Both the position numbers and the translations under genes were made by a program. From Allohoeflea poritis (lineage in GTDB: Bacteria > Pseudomonadota > Alphaproteobacteria > Rhizobiales > Rhizobiaceae): a stretch of 64,000 nucleotides of DNA. Under the pieces are notes generated by a model. The model did no database searches and was not told the origin of the DNA. It saw only the letters and a list, made by a program, of their open reading frames with translations. The stretch lies in assembly GCF_027889715.1 (NCBI RefSeq), contig NZ_JAPJZH010000011.1, positions 124,001 to 188,000 of the forward strand, given 5' to 3'. Positions 1,343 through 17,114 of this stretch are shown in pieces (the first letter of the stretch is position 1; each line of letters opens with the position of its first letter).

Positions 1343-1429
1343 AGATCACATCCTTGAAGATGCAATCAGACGTATCGGAAAAGCATTAAAGAAGGCTTGA
1401 GAAAAGGGGAGCCGGCGGGTCAGCAAAAC

Positions 1430-1445
1430 TGCATCCGACGATGCA
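1430..1445 (-). terminator. Short hairpin after the PP-loop gene, weak terminator candidate
   Basis: TGCATC-CGAC-GATGCA forms a six-pair stem 20 nt beyond the PP-loop stop codon. On the minus strand it is followed by GTTTTG, a poor U-tract. It is the only hairpin I see in the 122-nt gap before the GGDEF gene, so it may end the three-gene operon, but the evidence is thin. Confidence 0.3.
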
Positions 1446-1464
1446 TGGGACCAAATAACCCCCG

Positions 1465-2706
1465 TTATGGCCCAGTTTGGCCTTCCGGACCCCGAGAATC
1501 CGCCAGATATCGTCGGCGTCTCTTAAACTGCTTATAGGCTTTATGAAGTGTGTAGATATGCAGGGCATGTTTCCAAGCCCAGTTGATTTGATGCTTCGAA
1601 GCAGCCTTCTCGATCGCTTCGACCAGATCCGCCCGCCGGTTCCTCTGCAAAGCTGCGTCGCGCAGGCTTAACCAGTCAGATTCCGAAGATGGTCCGGAGA
1701 TATTTATCCGTCGGCGATCGGGACGGTGGCCGGCAAATACGGACGGCACATCGCGGACCTGAAAAACGTCGAGCGCAAACAGGACGAAGGTGCATTTGTC
1801 ACACCTGCCGCAACTCCCGGCTTCAGATCGATCGCATACCTGCAGATGCTGCAGCAGCACAGGTGCGTCAAGCAGCCTTTCAAATTTGGCCGCCCGGGCA
1901 ACAAGACCATGGTGCAGAATCTTCGCTCCGGACGTGCCGAAAAGAGGGTCTAGCAACGGATGCGAGCCCCAGGGGCGCAAATACGAGTTTTCGTCGCCTG
2001 AAGCAGCGATCAACTGCTCCTCGATTTCATCGCTTAGCAGGTGCCTGACGGCCGACAGCAATGCACCGTGATACTCCACCCAGCCAATCAAACGATCCGA
2101 GACGTCTCGAATATCGGTTTCGATAATTATCGGGTCGAGCCCAAACCGCTGCGACACGCCGATGGCTGTTTGCCGCAATCTTTCGGACGATGGGGAATCC
2201 GGCCTTGAGCTATTGGCACCTATGATCGTGACGATCTTTTCCAGCCGGTCGATTTCCGTCGCCAGGGAGTATGAAGAATCGATTCCTCCTGAATAGAAAA
2301 CACCGCGGCACCTGCCTGAAGGATATGAGCGGGATTCGGTGTCAGCCTGAATTGCAACGGGCCTGCTATTCGGATTCCACGAACATATCAGTTTTTGGAT
2401 TTTTTCTGCGTTTGCAAGAAGTTGAGGATCAACTGCACTCTTTACGATCAGTTCCGCACCCAGCTCGACGGCTGGCAGCAAGCCAAGGCAGAAAAGTGCA
2501 TCGCCGGATCTGCGAAGGGGCGTGCCATTACTCGAGAAACGGACGTTTTTGCGTTGCCCGTTACCGAATTTGAAGCTGACGACCGCTTGCGACGGATCCG
2601 CGACCTCATCCGAAAATGAAACCGTTAGGGGTGGTATTTTCACGCGATGGTCACCGACATTCTGCCTGATATTGGAATCCGTTTTTTTGCCGACGGCCCG
2701 GCTCAC
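1465..2706 (-). CDS. QueC-like PP-loop ATP pyrophosphatase of unknown substrate
   Basis: A protein of about 413 residues if it starts at the GTG at 2706, which overlaps the P450 stop codon as GTGA; a second in-frame GTG at 2724 is possible. The PP-loop SGGIDSS sits near residue 139, the signature of enzymes that adenylate a carboxylate or a tRNA base. Further on are a PWGSHPLLDPL block (about 245-255) and a four-cysteine cluster ending CGRCDKC (Cys about 291, 299, 302, 305), like the zinc site of QueC. This combination resembles a widespread uncharacterised PP-loop family. QueC itself is shorter and converts a carboxylate through an amide to a nitrile, so activation of a carboxyl group is the most reasonable guess. 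It is the last gene of a translationally coupled operon with a P450 and a GNAT-like protein. The substrate is unknown. Confidence 0.75.
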   Translation of the reverse strand: MSRAVGKKTDSNIRQNVGDHRVKIPPLTVSFSDEVADPSQAVVSFKFGNGQRKNVRFSSNGTPLRRSGDALFCLGLLPAVELGAELIVKSAVDPQLLANAEKIQKLICSWNPNSRPVAIQADTESRSYPSGRCRGVFYSGGIDSSYSLATEIDRLEKIVTIIGANSSRPDSPSSERLRQTAIGVSQRFGLDPIIIETDIRDVSDRLIGWVEYHGALLSAVRHLLSDEIEEQLIAASGDENSYLRPWGSHPLLDPLFGTSGAKILHHGLVARAAKFERLLDAPVLLQHLQVCDRSEAGSCGRCDKCTFVLFALDVFQVRDVPSVFAGHRPDRRRINISGPSSESDWLSLRDAALQRNRRADLVEAIEKAASKHQINWAWKHALHIYTLHKAYKQFKRRRRYLADSRGPEGQTGP

Positions 2707-3911
2707 GCGGTCCACTCGACGCACAATCGATCCAGCCCCCGTAATGAACTGTTGTCGTGCCAGCTGATACTCGACGGCTTGACCTTGAAAGATTTCCAGC
2801 GCTGCAGAAGGGTCGACAGCAGCGTCTCGGCCTCCAGGACAGCCAGATTATCCCCCAGGCAACGGTGCAGGCCAATCCCAAACGCCACATGCCTGTTGTC
2901 GCGCCGAGTCACGTCAAACCGGTCAGGGTTGGGAAAGCGGGCCGGATCCCGGTTGGCCGCACCCAACAACAACACGATCATTTCCCCTTCAGGGATCCGC
3001 ATGCCCGCCAACTCAATCGGCCTGACAGCTGTCCTGCAGATCTTTTGAACCGGACTTTGATGACGCAGCGCCTCAATCACGGCGTTTTTGACCAGCTCCG
3101 GGTGGGATTTCAGCTGCTGCCACGCATCGTAATATTCCGATAGCGACAGAAGCATGGACCCCAATAGATGCACGGTTGTTTCGTGGCCGACAAACGCAAG
3201 CATGGCAAGATTTGACGCCGCTGTCTTGCTGTCGAATGTCTCCGCCAATTCATCCAGCCCTGATTGCGCTGAAACGCGCCGCCAGGTCGGGCTTTTCACG
3301 AGATCACGGAAATACGTCATCATTTCCTCAAGGGCAGCCACATCTTCATGACTTAGGCTGTCGAGTCCGACATCGAATCCGCGCCGAATGCAGTCTGACC
3401 AATCGGATATGCGCTGCTGATCTTCTTCTGGAAAGCACAATATCCGGCTGACCACCGCGACCGGCAAGACCCTCGCAACCGAGTCGACGAATTCACATGA
3501 GCCGAAATCGCTGTCCGGGACGATCTTGCCGCAAACATCTTCAATGACCGGTTTGAGACGCTTCAAAGAGCGTCCTTTTACGGCGCGTGAAAATGCGCGC
3601 CGCAGTTCCGCGTGCTGAGGCGGGTTTGAAAACAACAGCCATTTATCGAAATCGCGCGCCAGGTCTCTGGTCTGTTCGTGAACAAAGCTGCCCGCGCCGC
3701 GCTCCGCCGGAGGCGATTGCAGGAAATCGCGGTTCATAAGGACATGACAAACGGCTTCGTAGCTGGAAACATACCAATCTCCCCATGGACTTTTCCAGAC
3801 CGGATAACGGCCCTGCAGCTTTCTGAAAACCGGATAGACATCAAATCCCGGCGGCGCTGAACCCGCTTTAAGATATTGAAAAAATTCATCTTCAGGGTGA
3901 AGATCCAGCAT
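2703..3911 (-). CDS. Cytochrome P450
   Basis: A soluble bacterial-type P450 of 402 residues, full length for the class. The heme-binding loop FGIGLHRCLG places the thiolate ligand at Cys351. The I-helix oxygen-activation motif GHETT lies near residue 240 and the K-helix ExxR (EALR) near 285. SNPPQHAELRR near residue 95 corresponds to the usual DPPEHxxLRR substrate-loop region. It starts one base after the stop codon of the GNAT-like gene and overlaps the PP-loop gene by four bases, so the three are almost certainly co-translated. No ferredoxin or ferredoxin reductase is adjacent, so electrons must come from elsewhere in the genome. Substrate unknown; the context suggests tailoring of a small molecule or an acylated amino acid. 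Confidence 0.9.
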   Translation of the reverse strand: MLDLHPEDEFFQYLKAGSAPPGFDVYPVFRKLQGRYPVWKSPWGDWYVSSYEAVCHVLMNRDFLQSPPAERGAGSFVHEQTRDLARDFDKWLLFSNPPQHAELRRAFSRAVKGRSLKRLKPVIEDVCGKIVPDSDFGSCEFVDSVARVLPVAVVSRILCFPEEDQQRISDWSDCIRRGFDVGLDSLSHEDVAALEEMMTYFRDLVKSPTWRRVSAQSGLDELAETFDSKTAASNLAMLAFVGHETTVHLLGSMLLSLSEYYDAWQQLKSHPELVKNAVIEALRHQSPVQKICRTAVRPIELAGMRIPEGEMIVLLLGAANRDPARFPNPDRFDVTRRDNRHVAFGIGLHRCLGDNLAVLEAETLLSTLLQRWKSFKVKPSSISWHDNSSLRGLDRLCVEWTA

Positions 3912-3912
3912 A

Positions 3913-4689
3913 TCAAGGCAAGTCCCGCTGCAGTCCGGCCGTAAAGTATCGCCTTAAACCTGTCCTGATATTCCGCTGGTCCAGCAAACCCAGGCACAAC
4001 AGTTCGTCGCCGAATTCGTAATTGCCGTTCCGCTTGAGAAAATACCGGACATCCGGCCTCTTCAAGTCCTTGGCCGGAATCGCATACGGCTCGGACTTAA
4101 CCGTATAATTTGAACCGCCATATACAATCAGCCCGCTATCGGAATGGTAATTTTCTTTGAAAAAGCGTTGTCCGATCGCATCTCCAAGCCGTTCATACTC
4201 CGATTGCTGGCATGCGCGCTCCCAATGAGGCCAGAAATCCCGGAAAAACAGCGGCATGAAACGGTAAGTTCGATAACCTTTTGTCGTCAGCAGCCAATAG
4301 AGTTTTGTCTCAGGCGCCTCTGAACGGATTGTCCCGGCAAATCTCATCCAGGTGATCGGCAATGCCATGTGACCCTGTGCGTTGGAATCTACCGCTGTAT
4401 CTCCGGAAAACAGGATTCTGATCGGTTGATCGTTGTGGATATGGTGCCAGACCACCGCGGTGGAAAATCCGCGCACCCTGTTGTCCTGGTCCCGAACCAG
4501 AATAACGTGGGTCTTCTCGGACAGGTCGTTCCAGAACTGCCGTCTGTTCACACAGTCATACTGCCCTTCAAAGACGGCGAGCATTTCCTCCCTGATCTGA
4601 TCCGTCAGGTCTTCCACGCGCCTGCAGGTTCCGCTCAACCTGAGCGAATCGCCATTGTGAATATGGGTATCCGAACTCTCAAAATTCAA
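3913..4689 (-). CDS. GNAT-like acyltransferase-fold protein, function unknown
   Basis: A 258-residue soluble protein starting with TTG; the start is supported by GGAG seven bases upstream, and no in-frame ATG or GTG is usable. Recognisable blocks are LFSGDTAVD (about residue 93), LLTTKGYRTYRFMPLFFRDF (about 140) and FGDELLCLGLL near the C-terminus. I recall these as the signature of a widespread, uncharacterised GNAT-like family; an acyl-CoA pyrophosphate-binding loop is not obvious, so transferase activity is an inference. It is the first gene of the P450/PP-loop operon, followed after one base by the P450. Its codon use and base composition match the other two genes and are poorer in GC than the flanks. 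It may supply or condense an acyl group in the same pathway. Confidence 0.6.
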   Translation of the reverse strand: MNFESSDTHIHNGDSLRLSGTCRRVEDLTDQIREEMLAVFEGQYDCVNRRQFWNDLSEKTHVILVRDQDNRVRGFSTAVVWHHIHNDQPIRILFSGDTAVDSNAQGHMALPITWMRFAGTIRSEAPETKLYWLLTTKGYRTYRFMPLFFRDFWPHWERACQQSEYERLGDAIGQRFFKENYHSDSGLIVYGGSNYTVKSEPYAIPAKDLKRPDVRYFLKRNGNYEFGDELLCLGLLDQRNIRTGLRRYFTAGLQRDLP

Positions 4690-4769
4690 ACAACCGCTCC
4701 AGTCACAGCTTCGGTATCCGCCGATTAATTCACGTGGCAGACACTATTTTCTGAGACTTTTTTGCACAA

Positions 4770-4796
4770 CCGCAAATTTAGATTCTCATTTTGCGG
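4770..4796 (-). promoter_or_regulatory. 27-bp dyad upstream of the P450 operon, likely operator
   Basis: Arms CCGCAAA (4770-4776) and TTTGCGG (4790-4796) are perfect. The inner bases extend the symmetry about a centre at 4783, with AGA and TCT also matching. It lies 81 bases upstream of the TTG start of the GNAT-like gene, in a 242-bp gap. It is not followed by a T-run on either strand, so a protein-binding site is more likely than a terminator. No regulator gene is adjacent, so the cognate protein is unknown. Confidence 0.45.
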
Positions 4797-4931
4797 ATTG
4801 AGCCTTGTGAACGAATGTAACGCGCACATAAGTTGCTTTGCGCAACACCGGAAGCATTGGAAAACACAGATATTCCGCCCCAGCCGGATCGTGGATCGCC
4901 TAATTGTACAATCGCTTGCCCGGTGGCCGGA

Positions 4932-7900
4932 CTATTCAGCCGCTTGCGGAATCTTGGCGTTGCCGTCCACAAACGCCTGCTTCAGGACCTCCCGCTCGGC
5001 CTCGGCCTGCCCTATGCTGGCGTCCTTGACATGCCCGTAGCCGCGGATCTTCTGCGGGTAGCTCAACAGCGCGACGCCGGCCTCCACCCGATCGCCCGAC
5101 AGCGTATCGATAACTTCGTCGAGCAGGGCTTCGTACTCGCGCAGGAGCCGCTTTTCGTTGCGCCGCTCGGCCTGGTAGGAGAACACGTCAAGCGGGGTAC
5201 CGCGCAGCCGCCGCAGCGACGCCAGCACGGAAAAAAGCCGCATCATCCAGGCGCCATATTGCCGTTTGCGCGGACGGCCTCCCTCATCGCGTCCGGTCAG
5301 CATGGGCGGCGCGAGGTGAAACTCCAGCCGGTCCCAGCTCTCGAACTGGTTCTTCAACTCGGCCAGGAAAGCGCCGTTGCTGTAGAGCCGCGCCACCTCG
5401 TACTCGTCCTTGATCGCCATAAGCTTGAACAGGTTCCGCGCCGCCGCTTCGGTCAAGGCGCCGGGCTTGCCTGTCACTTTCTCTTCGGCCTGCCTCACCC
5501 GATCAATGCGATTGCCGAACCGGCGCGCATAGCGGCGGCTCTGGTACTCGGTCAGAATTTCGGTCCGGCGCTCGACCATCTCGTCCAAAGACCGCGAGAT
5601 TTGCCGCACCGGATCGGGTTCGCGCGTCGCCGCCATCAGGTCGCGAACGGCTTCGGGCTCATGCGCCGCCCGGCGCCCCCACCGGAAGGCAGCGATGTTC
5701 ATCTCTTTCGCCTGACCGTTGAGCGCGATGGCGCGTTCCACGGCCTCCGGCGACACCGGCAGCCCGCCCCTCTGACAGGCCATGCCCAGCATGAACATGT
5801 TCGCCGCAATGGCATTGCCGAACAGGCGCGTTGCCGCTCCCGTACCGTCGAAATAAACGGTCCGGTCGTCTCCCGCCGCCTTGACGATTGCCCGTTTCAG
5901 CCGCTCGATCGGCAGCGAGAAATCGGCGTCCCTGGTGAAGTCGCCCGGCATGACCTCGGCCGTATTGGCGACAAACAGTGTTTTGCCTTCACTCACCGAC
6001 GCCAGGACCTTTTGCGATCCGGAAACCACCAGATCGCATCCAAGCACCAGATCCGCCTTACCGGCCGGTACGCGGATCGCCGCGATGTCGTCGGGACGGG
6101 CCGCTATGCGGACATGGGACAGCACCGCGCCGCCCTTCTGCGCGAGCCCCGCCATGTCGATCATGCCGCAGCCCTTGCCCTCCAGATGCGCGGCCATTCC
6201 CAGGATCGCGCCAATCGTGACGACGCCGGTGCCCCCGACACCGGTGATCACGCAGGCCCATCCGTCCGCCGGCAGGGCGACGGGCGCCTGCGGCACGCCG
6301 TCAAGCGGATCGCCGGTCAGAACGGTTCCGCCGGCCTTCCTGATCTTCGCGCCGTGTACGGTCACGAAAGACGGGCAGAACCCGTCAACGCAGGAGAAGT
6401 CCTTGTTGCAGCTCGACTGGTCGATGCGCCGCTTGCGGCCGAATTCGGTTTCCACCGGCTGAACCGAAACGCAGTTCGACTGCACGCCGCAATCGCCGCA
6501 GCCCTCGCAAACCTGTTCGTTGATGAAGACCCGCTTGTCGGGATCCGGATAGGTGCCGCGTTTGCGCCGGCGTCTTTTCTCGGCCGCGCAGGTCTGGTCA
6601 TAGAGAAGCACTGTGACGCCCTTGATTTCCCGCAACTCGCGCTGCACGGCGTCCATTTGCGAGCGATGGTGGAACGTGGCGCGTGCCGGCCACTCCATGC
6701 CGCTCGGATATTTGTCCGGCTCGTCGGAGACGATCGCGATCCGCTCCACACCTTCGGCCCGCACCTGCCGCGCGATGGCGTCGACGGTCAACCCGCCGTC
6801 CAGATGCTGTCCGCCGGTCATCGCAACGGCGTCGTTGAACAGGATCTTGTAGGTCATGTTGGCGCCGGAGGCGATCGCGAAACGCAGCGCCAGAATGCCG
6901 GAATGGTTATAGGTGCCATCGCCGAGATTCTGGAAAATGTGCTTTGTCTCGGTGAAAGGCTGCTGACCGACCCACTGGGCGCCCTCGCCGCCCATTTGCG
7001 TGAAGCCGCGCGTATCGCGGTCCATCCATATCGCCATGAAATGACAGCCAATGCCGGCCGCGGCGCTCGATCCATCGGGAACGTTGGTTGAGCTGTTGTG
7101 CGGGCAGCCCGAACAGAAATAGGGTGTGCGCACCGCGATATCGGTGATGTCGGAGAGCATGGCCTGCGCCTGCCGGATGCGCTTGACGCGGTTGTCGATT
7201 TCCTCCGAATGACCGATTGTCCGCAGAATGCGTTCGCCGACAGCAACCGAGATGTCGTTCGGATCAAGCGCGCCCTTTACCGGGAACAGCCAGCCGCCCG
7301 TCTCGTCGCGCTTGCCGACGACCATCGGCTGATGCGCGGTGCCATAGAGCTCTTCGCGCAGTTGCGCTTCGATCAGCGAGCGCTTCTCTTCGACCACGAT
7401 GACCATCTCGAGACCTTCGGCGAAGGCGCGGAAATCCTCATGACCGAGCGGCCATGGCGCGGCGATCTTCATCAGCCGGAGGCCAAGGCGGTCGGCCTGC
7501 GCTTCGTCGATGCCGAGGTCCGAAAGGCTCTGGCGCACATCCAGATAGCTCTTGCCGACGCTGATGATCCCGATCCTGGCATTGGCGCCACCGCTCCAGA
7601 CGATCCGGTTCAGCCCGTTGGCCCGGATGAAGGCGCTTACCGCATCGCGCTTGTAATCGTGAAGACGCGCCTCCTGGCCGAGCATGTCCAACTCCCCGGG
7701 GCGGATATTGAGCCCGCCGGGCGGCATGTCGAACTCCGGAAAGACAATATTCAGGCGCTCAAGGCCGGCCTCGACCGATCCGGTCGATTCAACATTGTCC
7801 TTCACGCATTTGAGCGCGGCCCAGGTACCGGCAAAACGTGACAGGGCGAAACCGTAGAGACCGTAGTCGATGATTTCCTGGACACCGGCCGGATTGAGGA

Positions 7901-8408
7901 TCGGTATCATCGTATCGACAAATGCGAACTCCGTCTGATGGGCGTTTGTCGAGGATTCCGCCGTGTGGTCGTCGCCCATGAGCGCCAGCACGCCGCCATG
8001 TTTCGAACTGCCCGCAAGGTTGGCGTGACGAAAGACATCGCCGGAACGGTCCACGCCCGGGCCCTTGCCGTACCAGACCGAGAACACGCCGTCATATTTG
8101 CCCGCGCCGTAAAGACCGGGCTGCTGCGTTCCCCAGCAGGCGGTCGCCGCCATTTCCTCATTGAGGCCGGGTTGAAAGACGATGTCATTCGATTGAAGCA
8201 GGGATCCGGCGCTGAAAAGCTGCTGATCAAGCCCGCCCAGCGGTGAGCCGCGGTAACCCGACACGAAGCCTGCCGTGTTCAGCCCGGCCCGCCGGTCCCG
8301 CTCTTTCTGCATTAGAAGCAGCCTGACAATCGCCTGCGTACCGGTCAGGAAGATCCGGTCTTTCTCCAGGTCGAACTTGTCATTGAGCGAGACATCGTGC
8401 AGCGTCAT
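4932..8408 (-). CDS. Fused indolepyruvate (2-oxoacid):ferredoxin oxidoreductase
   Basis: A single chain of 1158 residues that joins the alpha (IorA) and gamma (IorB) parts of the archaeal-type enzyme. The N-terminal pyruvate-oxidoreductase domain contains GFVSGYRGSPLGG near residue 48. A thiamine-diphosphate region with CSGCPHNSST is near 432. The cluster CEGCGDCGVQSNC with downstream cysteines (about 633-680) should bind [4Fe-4S]. The gamma domain starts near 719 with GVGGTGVVTIGA. The family oxidatively decarboxylates aryl- or branched-chain 2-oxoacids with CoA to acyl-CoA, reducing ferredoxin or another acceptor. The start has GGAGGA six bases upstream. A full-length paralogue lies at 58910. 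The next gene upstream is a TakP-like 2-oxoacid binding protein, which fits the substrate class. Confidence 0.9.
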   Translation of the reverse strand: MTLHDVSLNDKFDLEKDRIFLTGTQAIVRLLLMQKERDRRAGLNTAGFVSGYRGSPLGGLDQQLFSAGSLLQSNDIVFQPGLNEEMAATACWGTQQPGLYGAGKYDGVFSVWYGKGPGVDRSGDVFRHANLAGSSKHGGVLALMGDDHTAESSTNAHQTEFAFVDTMIPILNPAGVQEIIDYGLYGFALSRFAGTWAALKCVKDNVESTGSVEAGLERLNIVFPEFDMPPGGLNIRPGELDMLGQEARLHDYKRDAVSAFIRANGLNRIVWSGGANARIGIISVGKSYLDVRQSLSDLGIDEAQADRLGLRLMKIAAPWPLGHEDFRAFAEGLEMVIVVEEKRSLIEAQLREELYGTAHQPMVVGKRDETGGWLFPVKGALDPNDISVAVGERILRTIGHSEEIDNRVKRIRQAQAMLSDITDIAVRTPYFCSGCPHNSSTNVPDGSSAAAGIGCHFMAIWMDRDTRGFTQMGGEGAQWVGQQPFTETKHIFQNLGDGTYNHSGILALRFAIASGANMTYKILFNDAVAMTGGQHLDGGLTVDAIARQVRAEGVERIAIVSDEPDKYPSGMEWPARATFHHRSQMDAVQRELREIKGVTVLLYDQTCAAEKRRRRKRGTYPDPDKRVFINEQVCEGCGDCGVQSNCVSVQPVETEFGRKRRIDQSSCNKDFSCVDGFCPSFVTVHGAKIRKAGGTVLTGDPLDGVPQAPVALPADGWACVITGVGGTGVVTIGAILGMAAHLEGKGCGMIDMAGLAQKGGAVLSHVRIAARPDDIAAIRVPAGKADLVLGCDLVVSGSQKVLASVSEGKTLFVANTAEVMPGDFTRDADFSLPIERLKRAIVKAAGDDRTVYFDGTGAATRLFGNAIAANMFMLGMACQRGGLPVSPEAVERAIALNGQAKEMNIAAFRWGRRAAHEPEAVRDLMAATREPDPVRQISRSLDEMVERRTEILTEYQSRRYARRFGNRIDRVRQAEEKVTGKPGALTEAAARNLFKLMAIKDEYEVARLYSNGAFLAELKNQFESWDRLEFHLAPPMLTGRDEGGRPRKRQYGAWMMRLFSVLASLRRLRGTPLDVFSYQAERRNEKRLLREYEALLDEVIDTLSGDRVEAGVALLSYPQKIRGYGHVKDASIGQAEAEREVLKQAFVDGNAKIPQAAE

Positions 8409-8609: not shown

Positions 8610-9716
8610 TTACAGGCGCCCCGCTCTTTGCTGCAGCATCAGGAACGTGTCCTGGGCATATTCAGAGATCTGGAACCACAGATAGGCCTCGCCGCGGTAG
8701 CTCATATAGGAATCGTGTAGCGCCTTGAAATCCTCATTGTCCTCCGAAAGCTCGGTATAGGTTTCCTTTGCGGCGTTGAAGCAGGCCAGCATGATGTCGC
8801 TGGAATAGGGCCGCAGGACTGTTCCGAACTGCACGAGCTCGCGCAGAATAGGCGGATTGAGCGTGTCGTAGCGGGCCATCATGACCGAATTGGCAAGCGC
8901 TGACGCCGAGCGGATCGCGGCCTGATAGCTTTTGGGCAGCGCGTTCCACTTTTCGAGATTGATCAGGTTCATGACGGTCACGCCGCCTTCCCACCATCCC
9001 GGATAGTAATAGTACTTTGCCACGCGGTTGAGGCCCAGCTTGTCGTCGTCATAGGGGCCGACGAACTCAGCGGCATCGACCGTGCCGTTTTCCATCGCCC
9101 CGTAAATGCGCTCGGCCGGCAGGCTGACGGGATTCACGCCGATCTTCCTGACGATCTCGCCACCGAAGCCGCCGATCCGGAACTTGATCCCCTGCATATC
9201 GTCCAGCGTATTGATTTCCCTGCGGAACCAACCGCCCATCTGGGCACCGGTATTGCCGGCGGGAAATCCGATAATGTTGAACTTGCTGTAGAATTTGTTG
9301 AGCAGATCAAGGCCTCCGCCCTCATAGAGCCAGGCGTTCATCATCCTCTGGTTCAGGCCGAAAGGCACACCCGTTCCGAATGCGAAAGCCGGATCCTTCT
9401 CCCAGAAATAGTTGGAGGCGGTGCTTGCAATATCGATCTTGCCTTCCTGAACCGCGTCGAGGCCGTCAAGCGCATTCACCAGTTCGCCGTCCGGAAAGAC
9501 CTTGATATCGAATTTTCCGTCGGTCAGCTCACGAACGGATTCGGCAAACACTTCCGCTGTGCCGTAAATCGTGTCCAGCAGCTTCGGATAGCCGGACGAA
9601 AGCTGCCATGTGATGTTCGGCAGGGACTGCGCCACCGCCGGTGCCGCCAATGCCACCGACGCCGCTGCGCCCGTGCCTGCCACACCCGCCCTCCTGATGA
9701 ATGAGCGACGGTTCAT
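8610..9716 (-). CDS. TRAP transporter solute-binding protein, TakP-like (2-oxoacid)
   Basis: 368 residues with a twin-arginine leader (MNRRSFIRRAG, then a cleavage-like AAPAVAQ), so a folded periplasmic protein. The body is a DctP-family binding protein. The blocks EFVGPYDDDKLG and YYYYPGWWEGG are those of TakP of Rhodobacter, which binds monocarboxylate 2-oxoacids such as pyruvate and longer keto acids. GAGGAGG precedes the ATG. Unusually, no DctQ or DctM membrane subunits are adjacent. The gene stands between a 2-oxoacid oxidoreductase and a divergently transcribed hydrolase. The separate dctPQM genes at 31-34.5 kb have their own binding protein, so this one must pair with a membrane unit elsewhere. 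The 201-nt gap to the oxidoreductase shows no clear signal. Confidence 0.88.
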   Translation of the reverse strand: MNRRSFIRRAGVAGTGAAASVALAAPAVAQSLPNITWQLSSGYPKLLDTIYGTAEVFAESVRELTDGKFDIKVFPDGELVNALDGLDAVQEGKIDIASTASNYFWEKDPAFAFGTGVPFGLNQRMMNAWLYEGGGLDLLNKFYSKFNIIGFPAGNTGAQMGGWFRREINTLDDMQGIKFRIGGFGGEIVRKIGVNPVSLPAERIYGAMENGTVDAAEFVGPYDDDKLGLNRVAKYYYYPGWWEGGVTVMNLINLEKWNALPKSYQAAIRSASALANSVMMARYDTLNPPILRELVQFGTVLRPYSSDIMLACFNAAKETYTELSEDNEDFKALHDSYMSYRGEAYLWFQISEYAQDTFLMLQQRAGRL

Positions 9717-9980
9717 GCTTGTCCTCCTCTGGGATTTTCGAAAGGCCGGTTTGTCGGAAGCTGGGCCGCGAATCAGACTACACCTTGTTCATGTTCATGC
9801 AAATGAATCGCATGGGTATTTTCAACCAACGGAACAATATTTCAAAGCCTGCGAAAGCGCACATCGGCGTACGCCGCATACAGCGCCCCGCACTTGTTAC
9901 ATGTGCCGTAAATCGGCGGTTGCAAGATCGTGCGCATACGCTAAATAGCCCGCAGCCGAGCAACCGATCCGGAGGCTGAA

Positions 9981-10748
9981 ATGCGCAGCGCCATTGTCGC
10001 GATCCCTGCCGATACCAGAGAAATGGATGGATATGTCTGGCATGCCAGCCCGTCCCAGTATGCATCAGCCGCCTTCAAGGCCGCGGACGTCATACCGCTG
10101 ATCGTACCGGCTCTTGGACGCGACCTGTCCGGCTATACCGAGATCGACGAGATCCTCGATCGCGTCGACGGCGTCATGATCAGCGGCGCCCGCAGCAATG
10201 TCGGCCCGGAACTCTATGGTCAGGAACCGACGCCGGAGAACGGGCCCTACGATGCGGACCGCGATGCGACGAGCCTGCCGCTGATCCGGCGAACAATCGA
10301 AAAGGGCATTCCGCTTCTCGCCATCTGCCGCGGCATCCAGGAGCTTAATGTCGCGCTCGGCGGAACGCTTGCGACCGAAATCCAGGAAACGCCCGGAAAT
10401 CTGGATCACCGGCGGCCGGAACATGACGATCCCGATATTCGTTTCGGCATCCGCCAGGAAATCGCGGTCGAAAGGGAAAGCTGCCTTTTCGACATACTCC
10501 AGGAGGAAACCGCGCAGGTGAATTCGCTGCACCGGCAGGCGATCGGGCAGATCGCGCCCGGTCTGACTATCGAGGCGCGGACCGAAGACGGCGTTATCGA
10601 GGCCGTTTCGGTGGACGGTGCCAAGGCCTTTGCCCTCGGCGTCCAATGGCATCCCGAATACTGGGCGCAGTCCGATCACGCATCCTACAGGCTGTTGAAG
10701 GCTTTCGGTGACGCCGCGCGCGAATATGCATGGAAGAAACGCGGCTGA
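9981..10748 (+). CDS. Gamma-glutamyl-GABA hydrolase-like class I amidotransferase (PuuD family)
   Basis: 255 residues, the normal length for PuuD/peptidase C26 hydrolases. The nucleophile elbow LLAICRGIQELNVALGG gives the catalytic cysteine near residue 115, and VQWHPE near the C-terminus carries the catalytic histidine and glutamate. Family members remove the gamma-glutamyl group from gamma-glutamyl-GABA in polyamine breakdown, or act on related gamma-glutamyl compounds. The start ATG is preceded by CGGAGG. No puuA or other polyamine-catabolic partner is adjacent, so the exact substrate is open; an ornithine decarboxylase sits 12 kb away. It converges on a LacI regulator gene with only 19 bases between them. 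Confidence 0.85.
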   Translation: MRSAIVAIPADTREMDGYVWHASPSQYASAAFKAADVIPLIVPALGRDLSGYTEIDEILDRVDGVMISGARSNVGPELYGQEPTPENGPYDADRDATSLPLIRRTIEKGIPLLAICRGIQELNVALGGTLATEIQETPGNLDHRRPEHDDPDIRFGIRQEIAVERESCLFDILQEETAQVNSLHRQAIGQIAPGLTIEARTEDGVIEAVSVDGAKAFALGVQWHPEYWAQSDHASYRLLKAFGDAAREYAWKKRG

Positions 10749-10767
10749 TCCGGAGTGACTTCGGCAG

Positions 10768-11787
10768 TCAGGCCTGTTTCAAGGGCGACGTGGACTGGCG
10801 GATGCGCATTTCCGGCCGGATAAGATGCAGACCGTCCGCGTCGGAGGATCCGTTGAGCTTGTCGAGAAGCGCGCGGGCGGCCATCCGCCCGACCTCCGCC
10901 TGCCCGTTCCAGACCGTGGTCAGCGAAGGCGTCGCGATGGATGCTTCCTCCAGGTCATCATAGCCGGTGACCGAAATATCCTTGCCCGGCACAAGGCCGG
11001 CCCGGGCAATTCCGTTCATCAGCCCGATGGCGACGAGGTCGTTCCAGCATACGGCCGCGGTCGGCTTCTGGGGCAGCGACAGGAAATTGACGGCCGCCTC
11101 GAACCCGGCTTGCTTCGTGCGCGGCCCGGGTATGCGCAGGTCGGGATCGACCTCGATATTGGCCTTCTGCAAGGCATTGACGTAGCCCTGATAACGGTGC
11201 CGCCCGGTGGAGGTCTGATCGGTGCCGCCGACCATCGCGATGCAGCTGTGACCAAGACCGATCAGGTGGTTGGTCGCCAGCGCGATCCCATAGGCATCAT
11301 CGCCCCGGTAGATCGGCACATCGACCTCGTCGACCGAGCGCGCGATCAGGATTGCCGGCATACCGTTTTCCTCGGCAAGCGCGATATCGCGTTTCGGCGT
11401 GCCGATCGCCGGAGACATGATCACGCCGTCGCCGCCAAGCTGCAAAAGGGTCTCGATGAAGTTGCGCTGCTTCTCGACTGAATCATAGTGGTTCGACAAG
11501 ATGAAGGTCTGCCGGTTGCGGTCGAGCTCGCCTTCGATGGCACGCAGGATTTCGGCATAGAACGGGTTCATGATGTCGTGGACCACGACGCCGATGATGC
11601 CAGAGCGCGATGTGCGCAGGCTGGCCGCGCGCCGGTTGTAGATATAGCCGAGGGTCTGTGCCTGTTCCTTGATTTTCTCGCGCGTCGCATCCGCGACAAG
11701 CGGGCTGTCGCGCAGCGCAAGGGAGACCGTCGCCGTCGAAAGGCCAAGTGAATCGGCGATCGTCGAGAGTTTGACCTTCTGGCCCAA
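10768..11787 (-). CDS. LacI-family transcriptional regulator
   Basis: 339 residues. The N-terminal helix-turn-helix (KLSTIADSLGLSTATVSLALR) and the YIYNRRAASLRT hinge are typical of LacI. A periplasmic-binding-protein-like sensor domain follows, with GIIGVVVHDIMNPFYAEIL and VTGYDDLEEA. Translation probably begins at TTG 11787, because an in-frame TGA lies directly before it and AGGGG is suitably spaced. No sugar gene is adjacent: the neighbours are a PuuD-like hydrolase (convergent) and a MarR regulator. The target is therefore unknown; autoregulation is likely for the family. Confidence 0.88.
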   Translation of the reverse strand: MGQKVKLSTIADSLGLSTATVSLALRDSPLVADATREKIKEQAQTLGYIYNRRAASLRTSRSGIIGVVVHDIMNPFYAEILRAIEGELDRNRQTFILSNHYDSVEKQRNFIETLLQLGGDGVIMSPAIGTPKRDIALAEENGMPAILIARSVDEVDVPIYRGDDAYGIALATNHLIGLGHSCIAMVGGTDQTSTGRHRYQGYVNALQKANIEVDPDLRIPGPRTKQAGFEAAVNFLSLPQKPTAAVCWNDLVAIGLMNGIARAGLVPGKDISVTGYDDLEEASIATPSLTTVWNGQAEVGRMAARALLDKLNGSSDADGLHLIRPEMRIRQSTSPLKQA

Positions 11788-11904
11788 TCAATACCCCTAG
11801 AGCAAATCTGGCACCCGGCCGCGACACGGCACGGCTCTGACCGTTTGTTTGTCGGACCGTTTTAAACGAAAACTAAATTTTTTAAAGGGACGAACCGGTC
11901 GCGC

Positions 11905-12375
11905 TCAGCCCAGAGCCGAGGCGATGTTATGTTCGACCTTCTTCAGCAATCGCATCAGCGACTTGACGTCTTTCACGCTGAGTTCCTGCAGCGCAATCTT
12001 CTGCGACTTCCTGATCGCCTTGCGAACCGATTTCACGGCATCATGACCGGCTTCGGTCAGATAGACGTGCGACAATCGTGCATCGGTTTCGGATTCTCTT
12101 TTGTCGACAAATCCCTGAGCGGCAAGCCGGTTAATCGTTTTGGTCATCGTCGGAGCCCGAACGCCAAGTTGTTCTGCAATTGCCGAGAGCGAAAGCCCGT
12201 CATTGGCGTCAAGAGCAAGTATTACGGCATCTTGACCGGCATAAAGACCACAAGAAAGAAGTTGGCGCGATAATAATGTGCGCGAGTATCGAGCTGAAGC
12301 AGACAATTGGGAGAAAAGTTCAACCTTTTCCTCATTGTTTTTCTTGTCTTCACTGGATTTATTCTTCTTGGCCAT
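11905..12375 (-). CDS. MarR-family transcriptional regulator
   Basis: 156 residues from the ATG at 12375, which has GGGAGG six bases upstream; an in-frame TTG at 12420 lacks such a site. The N-terminus is unusually lysine-rich (MAKKNKSSEDKKNNEEK). The winged-helix core follows, with LSAIAEQLGVRAPTMTKTINRL as recognition helix and KRESETDARLSHVYLTEAG as wing. MarR proteins are dimeric repressors that usually respond to phenolic or other small ligands. It diverges from a creatininase-family hydrolase, which may be its target. The preceding LacI gene lies on the same strand about 120 bases downstream. Confidence 0.88.
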   Translation of the reverse strand: MAKKNKSSEDKKNNEEKVELFSQLSASARYSRTLLSRQLLSCGLYAGQDAVILALDANDGLSLSAIAEQLGVRAPTMTKTINRLAAQGFVDKRESETDARLSHVYLTEAGHDAVKSVRKAIRKSQKIALQELSVKDVKSLMRLLKKVEHNIASALG

Positions 12376-12424
12376 AGCGGCCTCCCTATCCGCCCGAGCT
12401 CTTGAGCCATAGTCGGGCAACTAA

Positions 12425-12452
12425 ATTATAACGCCAGACGGCACTATTTCAA
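12425..12452 (-). promoter_or_regulatory. Sigma-70 type promoter of the marR-like gene
   Basis: On the minus strand TTGAAA (12452-12447), a 16-base spacer and a consensus TATAAT (12430-12425) lie about 50 bases upstream of the ATG at 12375. The rest of the 338-nt gap up to 12713 shows no further convincing gene or signal; short frames in it are not supported by a ribosome-binding site or a recognisable protein. Confidence 0.55.
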
Positions 12453-12713
12453 AATCCGTCGGCAGTTTTCGAATCCGCTTGCTTCGATTCGTGGCCCGGC
12501 CTCTCTTCAGTGCGTCCGGCAAAGGCCCATCTGCGGATTCAATCCGGTAAACCGGCGGCCGGCGACGCAGCATCAAGGCGGTGCCCGGCCAATGGCGTAG
12601 CACGCCATGCCGGCAAAGGCGTTGCACAGTGTTTTTCAGGCTGCTACCTGTCGCGGACGCAATCACGCGCCGCTTCTGCAATGACAGATGCGGCGCGCCA
12701 GGAGTTTCACCGC

Positions 12714-13505
12714 ATGGTGTTCCCAGCGCGAAATTGGGATGAAAACGACCAGGATCTCGATCCGCAGGAACGGCACGATTGGATCGCTGTTCTACCGCTC
12801 GGCGCTCATGAACAACACGGCCCGCATCTGCCCTTCGAGACCGATACCATCATTGCCGACGGCATAGCCGACGCCGTTGCCGGGGCACTGCCGCCTCACC
12901 TTCCGGTGACGTTTTTGCCCACCGAGCCTGTCGGCTATTCGATCGAACACATGGACAGCCCCGGAACGCGCAGCCTGGGCTGGCAGGAGGCGGTGGAGCG
13001 ATGGATCGGCACCGCCGAAATGCTGCACCGGTCCGGTGTCCGCAAGCTCGTGATGCTCAACGCCCATGGCGGAAATGCCCCGCTGATGACGATCGTCGCC
13101 ACCGAGGCCCGGGTTCGCTTCAACATGCTGGCCGTGGCGACGAGCTGGACGCGCTTCGGCGTTCCGGAGGGCATCGTGACCGCCCGCGAAAAGGCGATCG
13201 GCATTCATGCCGGCGAAATCGAGACGTCCGTCATGCTGGCGCTGCATCCGGACCTTGTCGATATCGCGCGCGCCGCCGATTTCGACTCTTTCCAGGAGAC
13301 GATGGAGCATTCCGCAACGCATTTGCGCGCCTATGGCCCACATGCTTTCGGCTGGAAAATGGCGGACCTGAATCCGGCGGGCGCCACCGGCAATGCGCTT
13401 GCGGCGACGGCGGACAAGGGTCGCGCCCTGATCGCCCACAGCGCCCGCGGCCTCGTCGAACTGCTGGAGGATGTCCACAGATTCGACACCGGCCGGCTGC
13501 GCTAA
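12714..13505 (+). CDS. Creatininase-family amidohydrolase
   Basis: About 263 residues if translation starts at ATG 12714, which has AGGAG nine bases upstream; an in-frame ATG at 12681 has no ribosome-binding site. Metal-binding motifs of the creatininase fold are all present: LGAHEQHGPHLPFETD, MLNAHGGN and HAGEIETS. The family hydrolyses cyclic amides, for example creatinine and formamide intermediates in riboflavin and mycofactocin pathways. No neighbour identifies the substrate. It diverges from the marR-like gene and is followed after 66 bases by the COG0523 GTPase on the same strand. Confidence 0.87.
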   Translation: MVFPARNWDENDQDLDPQERHDWIAVLPLGAHEQHGPHLPFETDTIIADGIADAVAGALPPHLPVTFLPTEPVGYSIEHMDSPGTRSLGWQEAVERWIGTAEMLHRSGVRKLVMLNAHGGNAPLMTIVATEARVRFNMLAVATSWTRFGVPEGIVTAREKAIGIHAGEIETSVMLALHPDLVDIARAADFDSFQETMEHSATHLRAYGPHAFGWKMADLNPAGATGNALAATADKGRALIAHSARGLVELLEDVHRFDTGRLR

Positions 13506-13571
13506 ACGGCTTGTGACTAGGCGGTCGTGACCATTTGGCCTATATGCGGGATCAGACCACAGGAGCCGCCC

Positions 13572-14618
13572 ATGAGCGAGGCCTACAATCCCATACCCGT
13601 TACCGTGTTGACCGGTTATCTTGGATCCGGCAAGACGACCTTGTTGAACCGCATCCTTTCCGAAGACCACGGCAAGCGCTACGCGGTGATCGTCAATGAG
13701 TTCGGCGAGATCGGTATCGATAATGACCTGATCGTCGAATCGGACGAAGAAATCTACGAGATGAACAATGGCTGCGTGTGCTGCACGGTGCGCGGCGACC
13801 TTATACGGGTCGTCGAGGGACTGATGCGGCGCCCCGGCCGTTTCGACGCGATCGTGGTGGAGACAACCGGGCTTGCCGATCCGGCGCCCGTCGCCCAGAC
13901 CTTCTTCATGGATGACGACGTGCGCCAGAAGACCCGGCTGGATGCAGTCGTCGCGCTGGTCGATGCCAAGCACCTGCCGCTGCGGCTCAAGGACAGCCGG
14001 GAGGCCGAAGACCAGATCGCCTTCGCTGATGTCGTGCTCCTCAACAAGACGGACCTTGTCGGCGAAGACGAGCTGCGCGAGCGCGAACAGGCGATCCGGG
14101 CGATCAATCCGTCAGCGCGCATCCATCGTACCGAGCGCGCCGGGATCGGCCTGGATGACGTGCTCGATCGCGGCGCCTTCGATCTGCAGCGCGCACTCGA
14201 CAACGACCCGCATTTCCTCGATCACGATCATCCGGATCACGTTTGCGGCCCGGACTGCGATCACGATCACGATCATGATCATGATCACCACCACCATCAC
14301 CACGCGCCGGCCGATATTCATGATGCAACGATCCAGTCGGTTTCCCTGAGGGCCGGCCCGCTCAAGCCGGACCTGTTCTTTCCGTGGATCCAGAAGACGA
14401 CGCAGATCGACGGACCGAACATTCTTCGGCTCAAGGGGATCATCGCCTTCGACGAAGACGACGAGCGCTATATCGTCCAGGGCATCCACATGCTCGTGGA
14501 AGGGGACCATCAGCGTGCGTGGAAACCGGACGAGAAACGTGAAAGCCGCATCGTGTTCATCGGCCGCGATCTCGACCACGAAAAGCTCAAGCGCACATTT
14601 GAAGCCTGCCAGGCGTAA
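13572..14618 (+). CDS. COG0523/CobW-family GTP-dependent metal chaperone
   Basis: 348 residues from ATG 13572, with GGAG six bases upstream. The Walker [10 protein letters not shown] is near residue 12, the family's metal site GCVCC near 70 and the guanine-specificity NKTD near 170. A histidine/aspartate-rich linker (encoded about 14223-14305, including a run of six His) precedes the C-terminal CobW_C domain. COG0523 GTPases deliver zinc or other metals to client proteins in the cytoplasm. The next gene, eight bases on, encodes a WD40 protein, a pairing I recall from other alphaproteobacteria. I saw no Zur-like box upstream. The client and the metal are not proven; zinc is most likely. Confidence 0.9.
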
Positions 14619-14625
14619 AGTTTCG

Positions 14626-15597
14626 ATGCCGACCATCGCTCCGCTCCACCTCGACGGTCACTGTGTCGCCGCAAACTTTATTGGCGCGGTTCCGTTCTTC
14701 GCGCTTGCCGACGGCTCCCTGCACTGGCTCGATCACGGCGGCAAATCCGCAGACATTCATGACGGGCTGTTGTGCGCAACCCGCGACTGGCAGGGCCGGT
14801 CACTGCTGACCGGCGGCGAGGACGGCAAGATCGTCCGCACGACGTCCGACGGCGGCAGTGAGATCCTGGCGGACAATGCCGGCAAGTGGATCAACTGCAT
14901 CGCCGCCGGGCCGCAGGACGCGGTGGCGTTTTCAACGGGTCGCTCCACAATTGTGCGCAAAGCCGATGGAACCCTGTCAGAGTTTCAGGAAGAGCGCACG
15001 GTCGAGGGGCTCGCCTTCGCGCCGAAGGGCCTGCGCATCGCCGCGACGCGCTACAATGGCGTTTCGCTTCACTGGGCCGGCATCCAGGCACCGGCGGTGG
15101 ATCTGGACTGGAAGGGCGCACACACCCAGGTGATCTTTTCGCCCGATGGCAACTATGTCGTCTCAAGCATGCAGGAGAATGCGCTGCATGGCTGGCGTCT
15201 CAGCGACGGCAAACACATGCGCATGTCCGGCTACCCTTCCAAGGTCAAATCGCTGAGCTGGAGCGCCAGGGGCAAATGGCTTGCCTCCTCCGGCGCGCCG
15301 GCCGCGGTCGTCTGGCCGTTCTCGGGCAAGGACGGGCCGATGGGAAAGGCGCCCCTCCAGCTCGGCAAGCGCGACGAAGCCGTCACCTGTGTCGCCTGCC
15401 ACCCGACCGATGATGTCGTTGCCATCGGCTATGGCGACGGCACCATCCTTGCCGCAAGCTTTCCGGAGGGGAAGGAAGCCACGCTGCGGCGCAGCGGCAA
15501 AGGCGCAGTCAGTTCAATGCAGTGGAACGACAAGGGCGTGCAACTCGCTTTTGGTACGGAAAGCGGCGATTGCGGTATCATAGACCTGACGGCCTGA
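14626..15597 (+). CDS. WD40-repeat protein linked to the COG0523 GTPase
   Basis: 323 residues from the ATG at 14626, seven bases after the GTPase stop codon. The sequence is a series of beta-propeller blades of about 40 residues (for example VDLDWKGAHTQVIFSPDGNY and VTCVACHPTDDVVAIGYGDG) covering essentially the whole chain. There is no signal peptide, so it should be cytoplasmic. WD40 propellers are protein-interaction platforms. Position suggests it works with the metal chaperone, perhaps presenting clients. No catalytic residues are recognisable. Confidence 0.85.
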   Translation: MPTIAPLHLDGHCVAANFIGAVPFFALADGSLHWLDHGGKSADIHDGLLCATRDWQGRSLLTGGEDGKIVRTTSDGGSEILADNAGKWINCIAAGPQDAVAFSTGRSTIVRKADGTLSEFQEERTVEGLAFAPKGLRIAATRYNGVSLHWAGIQAPAVDLDWKGAHTQVIFSPDGNYVVSSMQENALHGWRLSDGKHMRMSGYPSKVKSLSWSARGKWLASSGAPAAVVWPFSGKDGPMGKAPLQLGKRDEAVTCVACHPTDDVVAIGYGDGTILAASFPEGKEATLRRSGKGAVSSMQWNDKGVQLAFGTESGDCGIIDLTA

Positions 15598-15613
15598 ACG
15601 CGGAGGACCGGCG

Positions 15614-16045
15614 ATGAACACAACACCCGCCCAGCTCATAGAGCGATTTTACCACGAGGTCTGGAACACCGGCGACGAGGACGTCGCGCGGCAGATCCTG
15701 CACAAGGATTTCGTCTTTCGCGGCTCCCTCGGTTCCGAACGCAACGGGCCTGAAGGTTTCATCGACTATCTGCGTGCCGTGCGCGGTTCGCTGCCGGACT
15801 TTGTCTGCAACATTCAGGAGATCGTGACGGAAGGTCACCGGGCGGTCGCACGCATGGAATTTGTCGGGACCCACGGCGGAACATTTTACGGCGTGCCGCA
15901 GACCGGCGCGAAAATCACCTGGGCCGGCGCCGCATTCTTCACAACCGACGGACGGCAGATAACCGAATTGTGGGTTCTGGGTGACATCGATGCGGTCAAG
16001 CGCCAGCTTGGGCTTCAGGACGGTGGCGATTTTTCGGCCGGTTGA
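15614..16045 (+). CDS. SnoaL-like / ester cyclase-like small protein
   Basis: 143 residues with the fold pattern of the SnoaL-like NTF2 superfamily: LIERFYHEVWNTGDEDVARQ near the start, a central FRGSLG, and the late strand GAKITWAGAAFF. Family members range from polyketide cyclases to uncharacterised hydrolases. It follows the WD40 gene by 16 bases with AGGA upstream of the ATG, so it probably belongs to the same operon. Nothing in the neighbourhood is a polyketide pathway, so a specific reaction cannot be named. Confidence 0.8.
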   Translation: MNTTPAQLIERFYHEVWNTGDEDVARQILHKDFVFRGSLGSERNGPEGFIDYLRAVRGSLPDFVCNIQEIVTEGHRAVARMEFVGTHGGTFYGVPQTGAKITWAGAAFFTTDGRQITELWVLGDIDAVKRQLGLQDGGDFSAG

Positions 16046-16079
16046 CTGACCGGCACACGTTTTCAGGCAGGTGCCGCGA

Positions 16080-17114
16080 TCAGGAATGATAAAAGTCGGC
16101 GACAGGCCGCTGGATGGTCTGTCCGGGCCTGTCGGCGCCCGCCAGCAGTTGCAGAAGCTGCCTGCCCATCAGATATCCGGCCTCCTCGATATCCTCGAAA
16201 ATCCGGTCGATGGTCGGATCGATCTGACTCAGGATCTGCGAGCTTGATTTGACCACGACCTCATAGGCGTCGCCGCGCAGCTTGCCGGCCGAGCGGAAGG
16301 CGCTCATGACGGCAAGATAGGAGGCCTCACCCGGACACACGAAACCGTCGGGCGCGTCATCCCGGGTCGCCAGCCCGCTTGCCCACGCGTTGATCTCGTC
16401 CATCGGGCTGATCAGCGAAACCTCTTCGGGGATGACATAGTCGAGACCCATCTTGCGCACCGCACGCATCAGCCCGTACTGCATGTGCTGGCTGAAGGTG
16501 AAACGGTCCGGCGGCTTGATCATGCAGATCTTGCGGCAGCCCTTTTCCGCCAGCCGCGTCGCCGCGAGATAGGCGAACTCCTCATTGTCGAAATCGACAA
16601 AGGAATGGCTGTGGCTGAACTCCGTGCGGCCGTGCGAGACGAAATGAAAATCGTTCTCGATCAGGAAGCGGACCCGCTGATCGAAAGGACTTGTCCGCGA
16701 GATCACCACGCCGTCAGCAAGATTGTTCTTGACGATGTGGTCGATAGGCGCCTTCGGATCGTCCTCGAATGCCGGCGTGATCGTCAGATGGTAGCTCGTG
16801 CCCCGGATCGCGCGGGTCAGGCCGCCGATCAGTGAGTTGCCGAACACCAGCAATTCGTCATGCGGATCGAGGATCAGGCTGATGACCCTGGTCTTCCCGG
16901 TGCGTAAGCGCTGGGCTGCCCTGTCGGGAACATAACCGATCCGCTCGGCGATTTCGGCGACCCGCCTGCGCGTGTCCAGGGCGATCTTCGGGTCGTCCGA
17001 CAAAGCCCGCGACACCGTGGTGACCGCCAGTCCCGCCGCCTCGGCCACCGTCTTGAGGGTCGGCCGCTTGCTCGTCTGCCGGGCGCGACTGATCTGCTGA
17101 ACTTCCCGGTTCAT
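16080..17114 (-). CDS. LacI-family regulator of the divergent sugar ABC operon
   Basis: 344 residues from ATG 17114, preceded by AGGGAG. The N-terminus has the LacI helix-turn-helix (LKTVAEAAGLAVTTVSRAL) followed by a hinge with YVPDRAAQRLRTGKT and a sugar-binding-protein-like sensor domain. It is transcribed away from the binding-protein gene at 17307. The 192-bp region between them holds a perfect 20-bp palindrome with a central CG, as LacI-family operators have. It is therefore very likely the local repressor of the sugar uptake and isomerase genes, relieved by a sugar or sugar phosphate. Confidence 0.9.
   Translation of the reverse strand: MNREVQQISRARQTSKRPTLKTVAEAAGLAVTTVSRALSDDPKIALDTRRRVAEIAERIGYVPDRAAQRLRTGKTRVISLILDPHDELLVFGNSLIGGLTRAIRGTSYHLTITPAFEDDPKAPIDHIVKNNLADGVVISRTSPFDQRVRFLIENDFHFVSHGRTEFSHSHSFVDFDNEEFAYLAATRLAEKGCRKICMIKPPDRFTFSQHMQYGLMRAVRKMGLDYVIPEEVSLISPMDEINAWASGLATRDDAPDGFVCPGEASYLAVMSAFRSAGKLRGDAYEVVVKSSSQILSQIDPTIDRIFEDIEEAGYLMGRQLLQLLAGADRPGQTIQRPVADFYHS

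Follow-up and report, generated by a model that had tools for sequence, protein, structure and literature searches.

What might be made by three tightly packed genes in Allohoeflea poritis that encode a GNAT-like protein, a cytochrome P450 (P450), and a PP-loop protein? The trio lies in a 64,000-nucleotide stretch of contig NZ_JAPJZH010000011.1 (positions 124,001 to 188,000, assembly GCF_027889715.1), which we refer to as the window. An earlier note, made from the sequence alone, had proposed that the three products act together on a small molecule, with ATP-dependent activation of a carboxylate suggesting an amide, nitrile, or activated-acid product. We put the probability at roughly 0.5 that the trio is a mobile cassette for making a small molecule, with the PP-loop enzyme taking over from a GH3 acyl-amide synthetase the ATP-dependent amide-forming step, on an acyl part that the P450 has oxygenated. 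The features are as follows, with the evidence for each open reading frame (ORF) or motif in parentheses; E is the expectation value and GC the guanine-cytosine content.

1400-4931 (both ends approximate), minus strand: inserted low-GC segment with the trio (empty site in congeners, GC)
3913-4689, minus strand: GNAT-like protein, 258 amino acids, first gene (ORF; family motifs SGDT and GxELxC; alignment of 15 rows and tree)
2703-3911, minus strand: cytochrome P450, 402 amino acids (Pfam p450, E 6.5e-24)
2853-2882, minus strand: P450 haem-binding motif FGIGLHRCLG (sequence, motif scan)
1465-2706, minus strand: PP-loop (N-type ATP pyrophosphatase) protein, 413 amino acids from GTG (ORF, alignments)
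2275-2292, minus strand: PP-loop motif SGGIDS, residues 139-144 (alignments, motif scan)
1792-1836, minus strand: cysteine cluster C(x)7CGRCDKC, residues 291-305, a QueC-like putative metal site (alignment, motif scan)

A mobile three-gene unit

The three ORFs at 1465-4689 run in the order GNAT-like, P450, PP-loop, and they are packed as tightly as had been described. The GNAT-like gene has a TTG start with GGAG upstream of it, and its stop is separated from the P450 start by one base. The P450 and PP-loop genes overlap by 4 bases in GTGA. The ORF listing begins the PP-loop gene at 2724; the GTG at 2706, inside the GTGA, is the likelier start.

The window belongs to a genome of 5.58 Mb in 54 contigs, scored 100% complete (G000), which is one of the eight genomes in our genus sample. 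The place that the trio occupies is empty in all six congeners fetched for it (G1012, G827, G1051, G902, G1077, and G1078), where the two flanking genes lie 114-158 bp apart versus 3.6 kb in the window. A seventh congener, G960, falls outside this count, its contig ending at that place. In the window, the insert is bounded by the stop of an indolepyruvate ferredoxin oxidoreductase-like gene (4932-8408, identity called by eye) and by the retained leader element of a GGDEF gene (2-1342); judged by eye, the conserved element ahead of the GGDEF gene is still present. The GC content of the trio is 54.4% versus 61.3% for the window, ranking 2 of 152 overlapping 3.2-kb windows.

A second complete trio was found in G1012 (locus L085), its three genes again in this order and sharing a strand, with identities of 56% for the GNAT-like protein, 52% for the P450, and 62% for the PP-loop protein. 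It sits elsewhere in the genome than the G000 trio, has its own 4-base overlap between the GNAT-like and P450 genes, and has a GC content of 50.4% versus 53.8% for the surrounding 19.5 kb. The empty site in congeners, the low GC, and the second trio at another place indicate that the three genes move together, which is strong evidence that they serve one function. The trio is a mobile cassette and a discrete insert, and the earlier proposal that its products form one functional unit is supported. Its conservation is narrow, which the earlier note had named as counting against its reading: the trio recurs in G1012, but trio-type PP-loop genes occur in only two of the eight genus genomes (G000 and G1012) in a protein search that took in G1077 and G1078, the remaining matches there being 30-45% identical, and complete trios were found only within the genus.

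Two further observations concern these regions. Downstream of the G1012 trio, at a distance of about 0.3-1 kb, two short ORFs (L085 6094-6735) resemble transposase remnants by eye. The window also holds, at positions 58940-59824 on the plus strand, another gene related to the indolepyruvate ferredoxin oxidoreductase-like one; across the N-terminal portion searched, identity is 46%.

GH3 genes beside the GNAT-like gene

The family of the GNAT-like protein is rare. With the window's own genome counted in each case, a single-sequence search found it in 5 of 397 genomes of the order, and profile searches found it in 7 of 398 genomes at the level of the phylum and in 6 of 346 within the family. We examined 17 loci, drawn from the genome searches and from four of the 12 plasmid-collection records with a GNAT-like match (seven of the eight unfetched records are from Azospirillum and one from Acinetobacter). 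A joint tblastn test gave a GNAT match in 16 of them. The other, L072, has a weak profile match, no tblastn GNAT match, and an AMP-binding enzyme as neighbor. The GNAT-like proteins of L068 and L069 are identical, so the 16 loci represent 15 distinct proteins.

In 14 of these 16 loci, a gene for a GH3 acyl-amide synthetase lies no more than 4 kb from the GNAT-like one; in 12 it is adjacent, downstream, and on the same strand. In L044 it is on the opposite strand at a distance of about 2.7 kb, and in L074 it is about 4 kb downstream. GH3 was identified by Pfam in L041-L044 and L084, by annotation in a Citrobacter plasmid, and by tblastn in the remaining loci. The two loci that lack it are the G1012 trio itself and L076, an Azospirillum locus that is the most distant of all. 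Across the order, GH3 occurs in 22 of 397 genomes (21 over cut-off) and in four of the five that carry the GNAT-like gene (Fisher p 3.5e-5, uncorrected for kinship); the fifth is the genome that holds the window. Searched for directly, GH3 was present once each in G105 and G768 and was found in neither G1012 nor G000. With G000 in 54 contigs, one could lie in a gap there, although that assembly is scored 100% complete and G1012 lacks GH3 as well. GH3 is thus absent from both genomes in which the PP-loop gene stands beside the GNAT-like gene.

Other partners vary. Two or more radical SAM genes occur in 8 of the 17 loci (L041, L043, L068, L069, L073, L084, L086, and L087), a cluster on a Citrobacter IncF plasmid being among these GNAT-GH3 loci, and Pfam finds B12-binding domains in both L041 radical SAM proteins tested, one below cut-off. 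Many loci carry a second acyltransferase-like gene. A P450 gene is found in L042 and L044, a Rieske oxygenase gene in L074, and a fatty acid desaturase gene with one for a weakly AurF-like protein in L087. MFS transporter genes accompany the GNAT-GH3 pair in L070 and L075, and L075 adds genes for HlyD and outer-membrane efflux, as would suit a small molecule that is exported. We found no description of GNAT-GH3-radical SAM clusters among the open PubMed Central papers listed, where OlsH was the only GH3-cluster work that looked relevant by title and start of abstract. L074, from Burkholderia arboris, is noted in its own right: positions 8932-16335 hold the GNAT-like gene and a second acyltransferase-like gene, a predicted metal-dependent hydrolase gene on the opposite strand, GH3, and the Rieske oxygenase gene, which puts a further kind of oxygenase into this setting.

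The GNAT-like label is weakly supported. The window protein has no match in Pfam or NCBIfam, and one of 15 family members matches Acetyltransf_9 (E 6.7e-4). By hhalign, the family scored 60.9 over 117 columns against the second acyltransferase-like family, which has one member annotated as an N-acetyltransferase and another without a Pfam match. A single-sequence AlphaFold model reached a predicted local distance difference test (pLDDT) score of 36, too low to be usable. PDB sequence searches with the PP-loop and GNAT profiles returned apparent chance matches only, with best E values of 0.36 and 0.44. Judged by the Acetyltransf_9 and hhalign comparisons, the protein is probably an acyltransferase.

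The cytochrome P450

The second gene encodes a P450, as had been recognized: it scores 85 bits against the Pfam p450 cut-off of 22.8, and its haem motif is complete. Its best PDB match is P450BioI (3ejb; E 1.4e-55), at 192 bits versus 163 for the next listed. P450BioI works on acyl chains bound to acyl carrier protein, and on this resemblance an acyl substrate is plausible for the trio enzyme.

The P450 also ties the trio to the GH3 loci. In L042, from another genus of the family (G105), the GNAT-like and GH3 genes stand with a convergent P450 gene whose product is 38% identical to the window P450, versus at most 33.9% among the best 20 of 1363 plasmid matches. In a tree of 12 sequences, comprising the two trio proteins, L042, six plasmid matches, and three proteins from the window's own genome (the weaker L008 and L009 were left out), the window, L085, and L042 proteins form a clade with support of 100/100. 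A distant P450 (27%) lies between the GNAT-like and GH3 genes of L044. The GNAT-P450 association thus occurs both with GH3 and with the PP-loop gene, and the change between them lies in the proposed amide-forming slot.

The PP-loop protein

The third protein carries the SGGxDS phosphate loop of QueC and the PP-loop superfamily, in the form SGGIDS, and its four cluster cysteines are invariant in all 19 aligned PP-loop proteins, the window's included. At the level of motifs, the earlier reading of a PP-loop protein with a QueC-like cysteine cluster is confirmed. According to the available part of PMC13329287, QueC has a C(x)8CxxCxxC zinc motif and a YxQxHxxE motif. The cluster here, C(x)7CGRCDKC, is one residue shorter than the former, and the latter is absent in 19 of 19 proteins.

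Membership in QueC itself was rejected on cut-off, motif, and profile comparison. QueC (PF06508) is the only Pfam match of the window protein, at 10.7 bits versus a cut-off of 22 (E 0.37-0.38), and hhalign aligns just 72 columns around the P-loop (probability 76.1; the QueC profile had three rows, one divergent). At E up to 1, QueC is matched by 10 of the 19 members, the best at 0.0041 and 17.1 bits, and distant relatives match the profile at the C-terminal cysteine region, also below cut-off. Kinship with asparagine synthetase or beta-lactam synthetase was likewise rejected, with an hhalign probability of 1.7 against a three-row AsnB profile. DUF6395 is matched weakly by four of the 19, and no mention of it was found in the open PubMed Central papers searched. 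We place the protein in a PP-loop family that borders on QueC without belonging to it. By the same comparisons it is not a recognized tRNA enzyme, and no Pfam model covers the family over cut-off; the grouping with a known tRNA-modifying family that would have spoken against a biosynthetic role appeared nowhere in Pfam, NCBIfam, or the profile tests made.

The predicted structure has a mean pLDDT of 77.5. Its best Foldseek matches in the PDB are beta-lactam synthetase (E 2.3e-3) and carbapenam synthetase, with TtuA and MnmA among the next. About two-thirds of the 50 rows listed are PP-loop enzymes by name, and unrelated enzymes are also listed.

These likenesses raise the leading alternative, namely that the trio does make a small molecule but that its PP-loop protein catalyzes something other than the GH3 reaction. 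It might, for example, use ammonia to form a primary amide or a nitrile, in the manner of QueC, or activate a substrate for sulfur transfer, in the manner of TtuA, MnmA, and LarE. The cysteine cluster and the P-loop give a QueC-like appearance to both ends of the domain, and TtuA and MnmA are among the Foldseek matches, none of them at E 0.001 or better. The subthreshold QueC scores and the missing YxQxHxxE motif argue the other way, and the usual pairing of the GNAT-like gene with GH3 favors an amide formed with an amine. We consider this alternative unlikely, while still the most serious competitor. The specific acid-amide-nitrile route of QueC, which the earlier note had suggested, is not supported by the QueC score, the motif comparison, or the short profile alignment.

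The closest relatives stand in another setting. A genome search returned nine PP-loop proteins that are 38-48% identical. Automatic gene clustering around these and a paralogue in the window's own genome (L010) finds an ATP-grasp-like neighbor in 8 of 10 cases (the label being below the Pfam cut-off, E 0.062) and an Acetyltransf_6/FemAB-like neighbor in 9 of 10. Varying sets of Mur ligase, GT25, pyruvyltransferase, formyltransferase, and asparagine synthetase genes (the last by eye) are also near, and the more distant relatives L078 and L079 adjoin pyruvyltransferase genes. In the tree, the trio proteins are a pair of their own (100/100) inside a 13-row branch (100/100) with the envelope-cluster proteins, among which their placement is unsettled by the tree.

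The trio might accordingly tailor a cell-surface glycan or glycolipid, with its PP-loop protein keeping the role of the envelope paralogue and having come together with the P450 and GNAT-like genes only of late. The shared branch, the ATP-grasp-like, Acetyltransf_6/FemAB-like, Mur-ligase, GT25, or pyruvyltransferase neighbors, and the envelope-cluster paralogue that both G000 and G1012 retain would fit. We regard this as improbable: the trio holds no glycosyltransferase gene, its PP-loop proteins form a separate pair, and the GNAT-like partner is tied to GH3 and not to glycan genes.

Two related loci in the genus are recorded here. The envelope cluster at L010 1630-13498 (G000:C8), together with L113-L115, contains genes for the PP-loop paralogue, ATP-grasp-like, and FemAB-like proteins, Mur ligase, GT25, and pyruvyltransferase; clusters of this type occur in four of the eight genus genomes, two of those four with a formyltransferase gene. 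G000 also encodes a QueC-family protein (G000:C18:10273-10836, L104/L092; 78 bits) whose gene overlaps one for a PfkB-nucleoside 2-deoxyribosyltransferase fusion, a pairing that the available part of PMC13329287 describes as a QueC-family cluster.

The proposed pathway and its remaining alternatives

We infer the catalytic steps, the substrates, and the product as follows. The P450 would hydroxylate or otherwise oxidize an acyl part. The PP-loop protein would use ATP to convert a carboxylic acid to its adenylate, with release of pyrophosphate, and couple the acid to an amine. The GNAT-like protein would take an acyl group off a thioester and place it on an amine. PP-loop enzymes are capable of both half-reactions, as in asparagine and beta-lactam synthetases. 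The PP-loop protein would be doing the job of GH3 by another fold beside the same GNAT-like partner, a replacement we propose because of the neighborhood and the absence of GH3. GH3 enzymes adenylate an acid and hand it to an amine, and the bacterial GH3 enzyme OlsH makes N-acyl-ornithine from a fatty acid, ornithine, and ATP, according to the part of PMC12493201 that was available. Since OlsH makes N-acyl-ornithine, an N-acyl amino acid suggests itself here as well, and the product would likely be an oxidized N-acyl amino acid or a related amide.

Carboxylate activation and amide formation, as first proposed for the trio, gain support, for which the usual GNAT-GH3 pairing is the strongest evidence. 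The interpretation as a whole now says more than the earlier one, with GH3 as a named functional equivalent, and also less, with QueC nitrile chemistry unsupported and the exact trio narrowly distributed.

Several points weigh against the replacement of GH3. It rests on two related PP-loop loci, and L076 has neither a GH3 nor a PP-loop match in the stretch fetched. The GNAT-like assignment is weakly supported. Foldseek gave no PDB match to the PP-loop model at E 0.001 or better, and the template modeling (TM) scores were low. The closest PP-loop relatives are in envelope polysaccharide clusters, and the ancestral substrate may have been a sugar acid. Among the ORFs of the insert, no gene for a redox partner or carrier protein was recognized by eye. 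OlsH, in the available part of PMC12493201, favors non-hydroxylated fatty acids.

A bolder version would have the PP-loop proteins as amide synthetases for acyl-amino acids or acyl-amines, a class undescribed in the open PubMed Central papers searched, with a QueC-like metal site and an origin among envelope-cluster enzymes, which has replaced GH3 in a portable three-gene pathway for a new oxidized N-acyl amide signal or lipid. We hold this version tentatively, at somewhat less than even odds.

That three unrelated genes met by chance in one insertion would suit the low GC and the insertion itself, but this is close to refuted by the recurrence of the same order at another site in G1012 at merely 52-62% identity and of the P450-GNAT link with GH3 in G105. 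A defense module, like those of the CBASS and qat systems with their QueC-like proteins, has the least to recommend it and is very improbable: PADLOC gave zero matches for the three proteins at E 1, no defense gene was recognized by eye among the neighbors, and we know of no P450 in CBASS- or qat-type systems. It is the mobile cassette and the QueC-like cysteine cluster that bring defense to mind, together with the QueC-family proteins of anti-phage systems in the available parts of PMC13279940, PMC11996544, and PMC13329287.

Implications

If the proposed replacement is right, a bacterial PP-loop enzyme would match the function of plant-hormone GH3 enzymes and of bacterial OlsH by another fold, and a family without a Pfam match above cut-off would gain its first function. 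With three genes only, direct reconstitution of the unknown metabolite would also be within reach. However the PP-loop protein is read, the pairing of GNAT-like and GH3 genes seen in alpha-, beta-, and gammaproteobacteria offers a lead toward a broader range of undescribed acyl-amide pathways.

Comparison with known systems

The available part of PMC2922099 describes operons for peptide formation that include P450, GNAT, or asparagine-synthetase-like PP-loop genes; they are built around tRNA-synthetase-like proteins, none of which was seen at the trio. The resemblance of the trio P450 to P450BioI (3ejb) is at the family level only. QueC (PF06508) shares the SGGxDS loop and a C-terminal CGxCxxC about 150 residues further on. 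QueC has about 230 residues, whereas the PP-loop protein has about 410, including some 120 extra N-terminal residues that are folded in the model.

The envelope-cluster PP-loop proteins (L010-L019 and L077) belong to the same family, with 35-48% identity and the same cysteines. They differ in a C(x)6 spacing versus C(x)7 in the trio and in their ATP-grasp-like, FemAB-like, Mur ligase, GT25, and pyruvyltransferase neighbors. The GNAT-GH3-B12 radical SAM clusters share a homologous GNAT-like first gene with the trio; in them, GH3, at least two radical SAM genes, and mostly a second acyltransferase-like protein take the place of the P450 and PP-loop genes.

OlsH, the GH3-like N-acyl-ornithine synthetase, is of another fold and family than the PP-loop protein, and in the part of PMC12493201 available its partner is OlsI, an alpha/beta hydrolase, rather than a GNAT-like protein and a P450. 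Elsewhere, GH3 occupies the place held here by the P450 and PP-loop genes, and ATP-dependent amide formation is the reaction that we propose OlsH and the PP-loop protein have in common.

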